DNA of 26,140 nt, taken from positions 1 through 26,140 of IMG/VR virus record IMGVR_UViG_3300030114_000040. One strand, written 5' to 3'. The DNA comes from a virus. Below the pieces are notes generated by a model. That model was not told where the DNA came from and made no database searches. It saw nothing but the letters and a program-made list of their open reading frames with translations. Of this stretch, positions 14,216 through 17,691 are shown piece after piece. How positions within the stretch are numbered: the stretch's first letter is position 1; every line of letters starts with the position of its first letter. The position numbers and the translations under genes were made by a program.

Positions 14216-14349
14216 TTACGTTAATTTACCTTTATCAAAGGAAAATATATCTGATATTCAAATACTTATACATCACAATATTTTTAATGTCAACTTTTAC
14301 AGCACAAAAAGAAATGTTTAAAATAATCAAACAACTTATTAAATCATGA
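14212..14349 (+). CDS. Small membrane protein (45 aa), doubly coupled
   Basis: The ATG at 14212 overlaps the collar stop (ATGA), and the frame ends in TGA at 14347-14349, overlapping the fibre ATG (ATGA again). The 45-aa peptide begins MITLIYLYQRKIYLIFKYLY, is strongly hydrophobic and basic to about residue 26, and ends in a basic amphipathic tail (KEMFKIIKQLIKS). The perfect coupling on both sides supports a translated gene, or at least a spacer ribosomes traverse to reach the fibre start. Function is unknown. Confidence 0.55.
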   Translation: MITLIYLYQRKIYLIFKYLYITIFLMSTFTAQKEMFKIIKQLIKS

Positions 14350-16022
14350 AAAAAGCTATTTTATTTTTATTGGTATTTATTTCTATCTTGTCAATGGGGC
14401 AGGCTCCCCAACGATTCAATAAGGTAATCGTAACGGGTGATATTACATCTCCTAAATTTATTCGCACAGGATCTACGGTCGACAGCGTATTGCTTGGTAA
14501 TGGTTCTGCACGGGCGGTTGCATCTATTAAAACTGATACTGCAAGTTTGTCGAATCGAATAAACACCAAAGAACCTGCAAACTCAAACATACAGGCTCAC
14601 ATTTCAAGTACTTCAAATCCTCATTCTGTGACCAAATCGCAGGTTGGATTGGGAAGCGTGGACAATACATCCGATACAAACAAACCTATCAGTACGGCTA
14701 CTCAAACGGCTTTAAATGGGAAGCAGGCGGCAGGAACTTACTCTACGGACATCCATTCAAATATTACTGCTTTAAATGCAGTATCAGGAACAAATACTGG
14801 AGACGAAACATTAACATCTATTAAGACAAAATTAGGCGCTGCAAGTTCTTCAAATTCGGGCTACCTATTAAATACTGATTGGTCAACATTTAATGGAAAA
14901 CAAAACGCTTTGACTTTTGGAAATCTAACAAGTTCAGTGGCGAGTATGTCGGTAGCAGGTGGAACAGGGGCTGTTATTGGAAGTGGGGTACAATTAAGTA
15001 TTCCAAACGCAAGTACATCGACCGATGGTATATTAACGGCAGCGAATTTTAATGTATTTAACAATAAACAACCACCGGGAAGTTATTTAACATCTCTTAC
15101 GGGGGCTGTATTACTAAACCCATCATCCGCTCAAAGTGGTAGTATCAATTTAACAGGTTCAGCCACTTTTTCATCAGCTGTCCAAACAACAGGGATTACC
15201 CCAACAAACCTAACAACAAATTACATCCCTATGAAAAGTAGTGGGGTGTTGATTGATAGTCCATTGTCTATAGTAAGTGGAATTACAACTATTACAACAG
15301 GAAATCAAGCGTCTTCAAGGTTTAATATTATAAATACATCTGGTCATGGCTTTTCTTTAGTTGCTGGTCAAACAAATGAAAGTCAGGATGGATTTAGTAT
15401 ATATGATACAAGTTTAGGTACCACAAGACTTACAATTACAAGTGGTGGAAACGTTGGAATAGGCTACTCCTCAGGAACTGAAATAACTAATAATAAGTTG
15501 GCGGTGAATGGTAAATCCTACTTTAACGATATGGTAAACATCGGATATGCTTTTGATAATCCGGATTTAACAGGAAATCAATTAGCAGTAAACGGAAATA
15601 TATACTCATCTAACATAATTCATTCGGAAGGGCAAATGATAAGTGATGATTTAATTACAGGACTTGGAGATATTAAGGCTTATGGGAATTTTATAAAGAA
15701 TGGAGGTACATCATCCCAATTTTTAAAAGCCGATGGGAGTGTGGATTCAAATACTTACATTAATGTGAGTGACATATTGTCTGGTTTTTTTTCTGGAGTA
15801 GGAGTTACAGCTACAATATCTGGGGCAACTGTTACCGTGTACACAGTATCGATAGGAGGAACAATGCCGAACACGTCATATAAAGTAAGTGTAACCCCAA
15901 CATCAATTATCGGGGGGTCTGCTGCGCATTATGTTTCAAATAAAACGACTACCACGTTTGATTTCATTTTAGTAGGAGGGATATTCGGAAATATAACACT
16001 GGACTGGGTGGTATTTAAATAA
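14346..16022 (+). CDS. Tail fibre with N-terminal signal peptide
   Basis: The 558-aa protein opens with a Sec-type signal sequence MKKAILFLLVFISILSMGQA, with likely cleavage after the Gly or Ala near residue 18-20. Ser/Thr/Asn/Gly-rich fibre sequence follows, including the phage-fibre motif NPHSVTKSQVGLGSVDNTSD at about 92-111 and repeated TALNGKQ/TFNGKQ segments. Later beta-strand repeats (NKLAVNGKSYF, NQLAVNGNIYS) resemble triple-beta-helix or head-fibre repeats. No chaperone or intramolecular endosialidase-type tail is evident. It should form the host-recognition fibre. The signal peptide is unusual for a virion protein and is discussed as a finding. Confidence 0.85.
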   Translation: MKKAILFLLVFISILSMGQAPQRFNKVIVTGDITSPKFIRTGSTVDSVLLGNGSARAVASIKTDTASLSNRINTKEPANSNIQAHISSTSNPHSVTKSQVGLGSVDNTSDTNKPISTATQTALNGKQAAGTYSTDIHSNITALNAVSGTNTGDETLTSIKTKLGAASSSNSGYLLNTDWSTFNGKQNALTFGNLTSSVASMSVAGGTGAVIGSGVQLSIPNASTSTDGILTAANFNVFNNKQPPGSYLTSLTGAVLLNPSSAQSGSINLTGSATFSSAVQTTGITPTNLTTNYIPMKSSGVLIDSPLSIVSGITTITTGNQASSRFNIINTSGHGFSLVAGQTNESQDGFSIYDTSLGTTRLTITSGGNVGIGYSSGTEITNNKLAVNGKSYFNDMVNIGYAFDNPDLTGNQLAVNGNIYSSNIIHSEGQMISDDLITGLGDIKAYGNFIKNGGTSSQFLKADGSVDSNTYINVSDILSGFFSGVGVTATISGATVTVYTVSIGGTMPNTSYKVSVTPTSIIGGSAAHYVSNKTTTTFDFILVGGIFGNITLDWVVFK

Positions 16023-16063: not shown

Positions 16064-16327
16064 ATGAAAACAGTAACAAGTACATTCCTTTCTTTAAATT
16101 TTAGAGATTTATTGAAAGCATTAATCATCGCAGTTTTAACACCTGTTATCCCAATTATTCAAAATAGTTTGAGTGCCGGGGTATTAACTTTTGATTGGAA
16201 AAATATTACAATAGCTGCAGTGGGTGGGGCTTTTGCGTATTTAGTTAAAAACTTTTTGACTCCATCGCAGATTATTATCACCGATGTCAATGCTGTAACT
16301 AAGGCGAAAGCTGAAGCTGCAAAATAA
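16064..16327 (+). CDS. Putative holin
   Basis: The 87-aa protein has two hydrophobic segments, about 17-37 (LKALIIAVLTPVIPIIQNSL) and 48-64 (ITIAAVGGAFAYLVKNF), joined by a short loop. The C-terminal tail is charged (KAKAEAAK). Size, two-TM topology and position just before endolysin genes match Bacteroidota phage holins. It would open the inner membrane to trigger lysis. It is followed at once by a terminator hairpin. The start codon follows a 41-bp A-rich leader. Confidence 0.7.
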   Translation: MKTVTSTFLSLNFRDLLKALIIAVLTPVIPIIQNSLSAGVLTFDWKNITIAAVGGAFAYLVKNFLTPSQIIITDVNAVTKAKAEAAK

Positions 16328-16334
16328 AATAAGT

Positions 16335-16363
16335 GCCCGCTTGAAATATAGCGGGCTATTTTT
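16335..16363 (+). terminator. Intrinsic terminator after holin
   Basis: GCCCGCT (16335-16341) pairs with AGCGGGC (16350-16356) across an 8-base loop, followed by TATTTTT. This standard stem and U-run sits 8 bases after the holin stop. As in the head operon, it falls within a run of same-strand genes, so it probably attenuates rather than fully stops transcription. Confidence 0.75.
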
Positions 16364-16383: not shown

Positions 16384-16722
16384 ATGTTGGGGATAAACGA
16401 TTGGATTGCAATTTTAATAGCATTTTTTACGAACCTTGGCGCTGCCTATGCTTTTTTTGAAAATCAAAAACGAAAGCAGACTGAATTTGAACTAAACATG
16501 AATATTGAGATTGCAAAGCTAAATGAGAAGTACGTTGCACTAAACAAGGAAGTTTCAGAACATAAGGATGGCAATGAAAAATCATTTGATAAAATTGAAT
16601 CCCTGGTTATGGATAACACAAAAAACAACAGGGAGGACCATGGAAAGCTATTCGATAAACTTGAAAAAGTTTCAAGCGACTTTGTGATTGCAACAAGGGT
16701 TTTAATTGGTAATACAAAATAA
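16384..16722 (+). CDS. Membrane-anchored coiled-coil protein of lysis cassette
   Basis: The 112-aa protein has one N-terminal hydrophobic segment (INDWIAILIAFFTNLGAAYAFF, about 4-25). It is followed by a long charged helix with heptad spacing to the C-terminus, so it looks like a type II membrane protein with a coiled-coil domain. It lies between holin and endolysin genes. It may be an antiholin, a second holin or a regulator of lysis timing; there is no motif to choose among these. The endolysin ATG follows its stop by one base. Confidence 0.6.
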   Translation: MLGINDWIAILIAFFTNLGAAYAFFENQKRKQTEFELNMNIEIAKLNEKYVALNKEVSEHKDGNEKSFDKIESLVMDNTKNNREDHGKLFDKLEKVSSDFVIATRVLIGNTK

Positions 16723-16723
16723 A

Positions 16724-17194
16724 ATGACACGAGCCGAAAAATTTATACCGAAAATACTATTTAATGAGGGTGGCGATAAAGTGACCAACGATCCAAACGA
16801 TTCAGGAGGGTTGACAAAGTACGGAATTTCTCAAAAATCCTTTCCAAATGTCGACATAAAAAATCTAACTGAGGCAAAAGCTATTGAAATCTATAAATCA
16901 ATTTATTTCGATCCATGCAAAATAGATTTAATAGGCGATGAATTACTCGCACTTCATGTTTTTGATTTTGCTGTAAATTCAGGAAATAGTAGGTCCATAA
17001 AAATACTTCAAAAAGTAATAGGAGTTGAAGCCGATGGGGCGTTTGGAAAAGATACTTTATTGGCAGTAAATACGGGATCTCATGTAGAAGCATTTAAACA
17101 GGCTCGTATTGATTTTTATAAATTAATTGGAACAGGTAAAAATGCAAAGTTTTTAAAAGGATGGATTAACCGGGTAAACAATTTAAAATTATGA
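16724..17194 (+). CDS. GH108 endolysin (N-acetylmuramidase)
   Basis: I start at ATG 16724 (MTRAEKFIPKILFNEGG); an upstream TTG frame would overlap the previous gene. The 156-aa enzyme has the GH108 signature with catalytic Glu15 in FNEGG, followed by NDPNDSGGLTKYGIS at about 22-36. A peptidoglycan-binding half FDFAVNSGNSRSIKILQK at about 80-97 and GVEADGAFGKDTLLAV close it. It hydrolyses the glycan backbone of murein. No signal peptide is visible, so release depends on the holin. Its stop overlaps the spanin candidate start (ATGA). Confidence 0.88.
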   Translation: MTRAEKFIPKILFNEGGDKVTNDPNDSGGLTKYGISQKSFPNVDIKNLTEAKAIEIYKSIYFDPCKIDLIGDELLALHVFDFAVNSGNSRSIKILQKVIGVEADGAFGKDTLLAVNTGSHVEAFKQARIDFYKLIGTGKNAKFLKGWINRVNNLKL

Positions 17195-17691
17195 GAAATT
17201 TAATAAAACGTTGTTGGTGGATTTTGATTCCGATAACATTTGGATTTTTGCTGTTTACTTTTTCATGCAGGACGATCTATGTTGATCGTCCATATTACGT
17301 CACACAGAACGACTCTATTCAATTAATTGACACGGCAATACTAATTCACCACGATACTATAAAAAGTACCGTGGTAGTACCTATTAAGAATAAATTGGCT
17401 ATTATAGACACTAAGTTTCTATTTTCGAAAGCTTGGATTTTTAATGACAGCTTATTTTTATCGGCAAATCTTAAAAATAATGTCGATACAGTTAAAATAA
17501 AGAATACGATTAGGACTATAACCAATACCCCTGCACCAATAATCATCACTAAGACGGAAAAAGTTTATACGCATTCAGATCGATTCTTGGAAAATTGGAT
17601 GTATGGATCGGGGTGGGTGTTGTGGGGTATTATTTTGCTCGCTGCTATAACTTTTATTATAAAATTTTTGATTAAGATTAAAATTTTGTAA
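17191..17691 (+). CDS. Candidate unimolecular spanin (lipoprotein with C-terminal TM)
   Basis: The 166-aa protein begins with a basic, hydrophobic signal (MRNLIKRCWWILIPITFGFL) ending in a Cys at residue 26 (LFTFSC), an atypical lipobox. A central domain of about 110 residues is rich in beta-forming sequence and aspartates. The C-terminus (about 140-163) is a transmembrane helix WVLWGIILLAAITFIIKFLI with basic last residues. A lipid anchor at one end and a TM at the other is the topology of u-spanins such as phage T1 gp11, which fuse the inner and outer membranes. It lies directly after the endolysin. The family assignment is inference from topology and position. Confidence 0.6.
   Translation: MRNLIKRCWWILIPITFGFLLFTFSCRTIYVDRPYYVTQNDSIQLIDTAILIHHDTIKSTVVVPIKNKLAIIDTKFLFSKAWIFNDSLFLSANLKNNVDTVKIKNTIRTITNTPAPIIITKTEKVYTHSDRFLENWMYGSGWVLWGIILLAAITFIIKFLIKIKIL

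Follow-up and report, generated by a model that had tools for sequence, protein, structure and literature searches.

The prototype of the unimolecular spanins (u-spanins) is gp11 of phage T1, an Rz-like spanin (phrog_1804) whose gene closes a cassette of overlapping genes in which gp13 is the holin (71 aa, one transmembrane (TM) segment), gp12 the endolysin and gp11 the spanin. Periplasmic cysteines are absent from all 58 u-spanins of the 2018 survey, where deviant lipoboxes are also reported among spanins, AWAC being functional in gp11 (PMC6139136). The disruption of the outer membrane once the peptidoglycan is gone, presumably also the job of the protein described here, is carried out in phage lambda by the products of two genes, Rz and Rz1, which are a coiled-coil i-spanin and an o-spanin lipoprotein; no such pair was found in the 26,140-base stretch of viral DNA analysed here (hereafter the window). 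As for the phages of Bacteroidota, a unimolecular spanin has been annotated for Ingeline, which infects Cellulophaga, and a potential one for a second Cellulophaga phage, Nekkels (PMC8776804, 2021), and a survey from 2025, which kept candidates only if they had a lipobox as well as a TM, states that Bacteroidetes phages use the unimolecular type exclusively (PMC12596118). The claim of the sequence-only reading that spanins of such phages are poorly described is therefore only partly true, since u-spanins have already been annotated and surveyed in them.

The window is a single IMG/VR virus record, which may be a fragment. It carries on its plus strand a lysis cassette in which the ORF at 17191..17691 is the final gene, after a GH108 endolysin and one or two small membrane proteins. 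The 87-aa protein coded at 16064..16327 is a holin candidate with two moderately hydrophobic segments (KD peaks at residues 7-25 and 48-66) and has no family match in Pfam, PHROG or NCBIfam. A terminator-like hairpin (16335..16356, plus strand; 7 pairs, 6 of them GC), which is a consensus match only, lies between this gene and the remaining cassette. The 112-aa protein at 16384..16722, sitting where T1 has gp13, is a holin or holin-associated candidate made of one N-terminal hydrophobic segment followed by a charged helical stretch, and has no confident match in the same three collections; the holin may be either of the two. The endolysin (16724..17194) has a PG_binding_3 domain and no signal sequence, and is matched by PF05838 (1.4e-19), PF09374 (2.4e-9) and the PHROG endolysin family phrog_315 (2.6e-41). 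Its stop shares 4 bp (ATGA) with the start of the ORF at 17191..17691, compared with overlaps of 1 bp in T1, which bears out the earlier placing of this gene directly after a GH108 endolysin. Just upstream of the cassette, a 558-aa tail-fibre-like ORF (14346-16022) begins like a signal peptide (MKKAILFLLVFISILSMGQAPQ), and this start would agree with the Bacteroidetes Q rule. In the contig L117, part of this ORF is 80-87% identical to the window and the downstream flank about 99.5% identical, a pattern as would be seen for a variable receptor-binding gene. At its left end (87-381) the window contains some 20 tandem copies of a 15-bp repeat, nested within a period of 45 bp, inside the ORF at 11-511.

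The ORF at 17191..17691 (plus strand, ATG start, 166 aa) is a real gene; an open frame of 166 codons has a probability of 3e-5 at the stop-codon frequency of the window. Residues 1-25 (17191..17265) comprise a basic n-region (MRNLIKR, with R2, K6 and R7) and 18 hydrophobic residues ending in T-F-S, and are followed by Cys26 (TGC, 17266..17268), the putative lipidation site. The only other cysteine is Cys8, so that the putative periplasmic domain (residues 27-141; 17269..17613) has none. A C-terminal TM helix covers about residues 142-161 (17614..17673) and is followed by a basic tail, the hydropathy peaking at residues 143-161 (mean KD 2.62) with K158, K162 and K164 at the end; the charges at both hydrophobic ends are of the positive-inside kind. 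The hydrophobic N-terminus with its cysteine and the C-terminal TM with its basic end, as first read from the letters, are hence visible by hydropathy. The AF2 model, computed from the single sequence without relatives (mean pLDDT 53.6), draws helices at 2-28 and 128-162, the latter with a pLDDT of 82-90 in its last three blocks, and six short strands between them in a middle part below 50. It supports a TM-beta-TM outline and nothing finer. The middle domain is probably beta-rich, as had been proposed: V, I and T make up 35% of residues 27-135, and the six predicted strands lie there at low pLDDT.

The assignment of the phage to a Bacteroidota host, already made in the sequence-only reading, is well supported by the relatives of its terminase and endolysin. 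The terminase matches phages of Flavobacterium, Bacteroides, Phocaeicola, Parabacteroides and Elizabethkingia, together with three records named otherwise, and no others, and the closest endolysin among sequenced genomes (54% identical) is found in a Bacteroidetes MAG. The ORF itself has no match in Pfam (E<=1), PHROG or NCBIfam, no homologue by tblastn in 50,697 phage records and none in GTDB contigs. Nor was any sequence or profile link to known spanins found in these collections or by BLASTP against T1 gp11 (best 13 bits, E 1.9); phrog_1804, which recovers the T1 gp11 control at 9.7e-45, is not matched either. Four IMG/VR contigs code for the identical protein and none for a diverged copy; their flanks differ, but over the ORF they are identical in DNA and therefore uninformative about selection on Cys26. 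Using the downstream tail protein as bait recovered the same virus, and the terminase recovered 19 relatives, of which those other than near-copies of the window virus stop short of the cassette. Matches with E values of 0.002-0.008, from 395 genomes drawn via the Bacteroidetes MAG locus, were rejected as chance, since they lie within unrelated frames that are longer or interrupted by stops. By these searches, the protein belongs to a new, near-orphan sequence family of a kind which is already known.

Whether the N-terminus is a lipoprotein signal or a plain anchor depends on the motif preceding Cys26. By a PROSITE-type prokaryotic lipoprotein rule, applied here as a cysteine at position 15-35 and K or R in the first seven residues, TFSC passes, with S at -1, while its residues at -3 and -2 depart from the strict consensus [LVI][ASTVI][GAS]C; the earlier description of the lipobox as non-classical thus holds against the latter and not under the former. 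The rule was calibrated on 800 kb of DNA (40 stretches of 20 kb) from genomes sampled as belonging to the phylum of the Bacteroidetes MAG. It was passed by 22 of the 197 proteins whose N-terminal region is hydrophobic, about 4.6-fold over the 4.7 expected by chance from the rate of cysteines after internal hydrophobic segments. With S at -1, the motif occurs in 13 of 92 N-terminal contexts versus 5 of 209 internal ones in this Bacteroidota DNA, which means that roughly 80% (about four in five) of such matches are beyond chance. Among the 22 rule-passing proteins Ser is the commonest residue at -1 (13/22), Thr stands at -3 twice and Phe at -2 once. As judged from these counts, TFSC is unusual, yet within the usage of the sampled Bacteroidota genomes. 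A scan of all ORFs of at least 35 aa on either strand gave no other lipoprotein signal in the window, and processing by SPII at Cys26 is likely in view of the motif.

The main rival to the u-spanin reading is a protein with a plain N-terminal anchor, that is, a two-TM inner-membrane protein with a large periplasmic loop whose beta domain acts on the outer membrane or on a partner from the host, and in which Cys26, located on the periplasmic face, perhaps forms a disulfide-linked dimer. Residues 8-25 are hydrophobic over a length sufficient for a plain TM, AF2 draws a continuous helix there, and the lipobox is non-classical. Against this stand the enrichment of the motif, a cysteine at 15-35 with S at -1 and K/R in the first seven residues being a lipobox far above chance at Bacteroidota N-termini, and the consideration that a two-TM protein confined to the inner membrane would not on its own bridge to the outer one. 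We consider this rival unlikely.

We regard it as probable that the ORF codes for a unimolecular spanin of the T1 type in a Bacteroidota phage. This reading is based on the position after the endolysin, the plan shared with T1 gp11, the sole lipoprotein signal of the window and the lack of an overlapping o-spanin frame, further on the motif enrichment, the lack of periplasmic cysteines and the tolerance for unusual lipoboxes among spanins, and lastly on the fact that the same slot (the position after the endolysin) in related cassettes holds other periplasm-facing membrane proteins. It is weakened by TFSC being off the strict consensus, by an N-terminus as long as a TM, by the missing link to known spanins and by a record that is possibly fragmentary. 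We infer lipidation, outer-membrane sorting and a fusion step for the protein. It would tie the inner membrane to the outer one; after the holin has fired and the GH108 endolysin has stripped the peptidoglycan, the tethers would be free to cluster and collapse, and the collapsed tethers would fuse or tear the outer membrane, leading to lysis. The fusion step is a proposed model for T1 gp11 as well.

No second spanin gene was found in the record, and no overlapping plus-strand frame of at least 40 aa lies inside the ORF. Together with the scan for lipoboxes, this rules out a two-component spanin within the window. As the record is possibly incomplete, and separated two-component spanins do exist (PMC6139136), the protein might still be an i-spanin with its o-spanin partner coded elsewhere, but i-spanins have an N-terminal TM and are rich in coiled coil, whereas this product, probably beta-rich, carries a strong TM at its C-terminus; we give this reading a very slim chance. 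Another lysis-associated membrane protein that takes no part in disrupting the outer membrane, such as an antiholin, a holin partner or a superinfection-exclusion protein, could be considered given that the family is without a match and that superinfection-exclusion genes, too, can encode small membrane proteins. Two candidate holin genes are however already present upstream, the record holds no other spanin candidate, and two hydrophobic ends flanking a periplasmic domain of some 110 aa, coded right after the endolysin, are the plan of a spanin, which makes this alternative quite improbable.

The gene following related endolysins varies between cassettes, the slot thus not being conserved. 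In an environmental contig (L010) whose GH108 endolysin is 68% identical to that of the window, it is a DUF6549 gene (3.4e-29; L010:3476-4102), to which family the window ORF does not belong (no PF20186 match in Pfam, E<=1). DUF6549 (PF20186, phrog_14010) also overlaps the end of the endolysin in Bacteroides phage BU1-1, Phocaeicola phage BM127P1 and Parabacteroides phage PM93P1 (all GH108), and of the Amidase_2 endolysin in Bacteroides phage SJC10 (L180:3992-4558); DUF6549 genes in this position lie at L184:3009-3587, L185:3009-3578 and L186:3006-3578. In phage B124-14, listed as spanin-less in 2018 (PMC6139136), it overlaps the M15 peptidase endolysin (8.6e-29; L192:6765-7370, minus strand). 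The family is found directly 3' of the endolysin gene, usually overlapping it, whatever the endolysin type (GH108, Amidase_2 or Peptidase_M15_3), and has relatives in 126 phage records. Its members begin with a plain TM, continue as a helical stalk and end in a conserved C-terminal part, with neither a lipobox nor a C-terminal TM, and they are a candidate spanin family of Bacteroides phages. As the 2025 survey required both a lipobox and a TM, DUF6549 would not count there as a unimolecular spanin, and its presence in the slot, including that of the 'spanin-less' B124-14, makes it a candidate family missed by the statement that only u-spanins are used (PMC12596118). A search for DUF6549 or spanin in the literature gave no paper with DUF6549 among the matches listed.

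Other types of protein occupy the slot as well. In L011 and L086 (Bacteroidetes MAG locus) it holds a helical protein whose N-terminal hydrophobic stretch ends in a cysteine and which has another hydrophobic segment at its C-terminus; in L086, a 75-aa ORF lies between this protein and the endolysin. The N-terminus of the L011 protein (MKNFLIRTWWVIIPILLIVVIISVPRC) resembles that of the window protein, with an Arg at -1 which does not make a lipobox; homology between the two was not accepted, the match being limited to 10 N-terminal residues (E 0.079). Proteins adjoining GH108 at L013:2342-2998, L100:2108-2824 and L109:2453-3076 have an N-terminal TM and outer-membrane-like C-terminal beta strands (an example of such an end is YVGGGLFGSQLVGLSGGFVAGIY...FAISAGYNTNGITYGLSTYWKV), and could possibly link the two membranes, held in the outer one by a beta anchor. 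A 196-aa LSGC lipoprotein with a C-terminal TM is coded at L096:2055-2645, in the GH108 locus of a genome from the phylum of the MAG; it is a u-spanin candidate with a classical lipobox by its motif and TM, and no relatives of it were found in phage records. A cysteine that closes the hydrophobic N-terminal stretch, as at 17266 in the window, is frequent in slot proteins other than DUF6549 (Cys27 in L011, Cys37 in L013, Cys30 in L086), even with R or T at -1, and where that residue is unfavourable it may perhaps form a disulfide. For the plain-anchor reading of the window protein, the cysteines in L011 (VPRC), L013 (LQRC) and L086 (VATC), whose -1 residues disfavour lipidation, are favourable, as is the plain N-terminal TM of the DUF6549 proteins. 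Taken further, a single slot in Bacteroidota phages could hold several unrelated periplasm-facing types (lipoprotein with C-terminal TM, helical with N-terminal and C-terminal TM, DUF6549, and N-terminal TM with beta strands), at least one of the non-lipidated ones breaking the outer membrane in the manner of neither Rz/Rz1 nor T1, in which case the window ORF could be a non-lipidated two-TM spanin with Cys26 in a disulfide; we hold this broader scheme to be doubtful.

Bacteroidota are a major gut and aquatic group, and no experimentally tested spanin of one of their phages was found in the literature searched. The ORF at 17191..17691 offers a small, clean test of the T1 plan in Bacteroidota and of how loose a lipobox can be. 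The by-product concerning DUF6549 weighs more: with the family in the slot of Bacteroides, Phocaeicola and Parabacteroides phages, and its relatives in 126 phage records, the question of how Bacteroides phages open the outer membrane becomes directly testable.

Compared with known systems, the protein matches T1 gp11 feature by feature, in agreement with the u-spanin plan first proposed for this lysis cassette. Both have a lipobox-like N-terminal cysteine (LSGC at 22 in T1 gp11, the non-classical TFSC at 26 here), no periplasmic cysteine, a C-terminal TM and a basic end, and both close their cassettes. They differ in size (133 versus 166 aa, with ectodomains of about 82 and about 110 residues), in the accompanying endolysin, which is a SAR endolysin in T1 and a soluble GH108 one here, and in sequence, between which there is no similarity. 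DUF6549 shares with the protein the slot after the endolysin and differs from it in architecture. The spanins of Ingeline and Nekkels (PMC8776804) and the Bacteroidetes 'USP' (PMC12596118), likened here by their description, are the same kind of prediction, in the same host phylum and the same lysis context.
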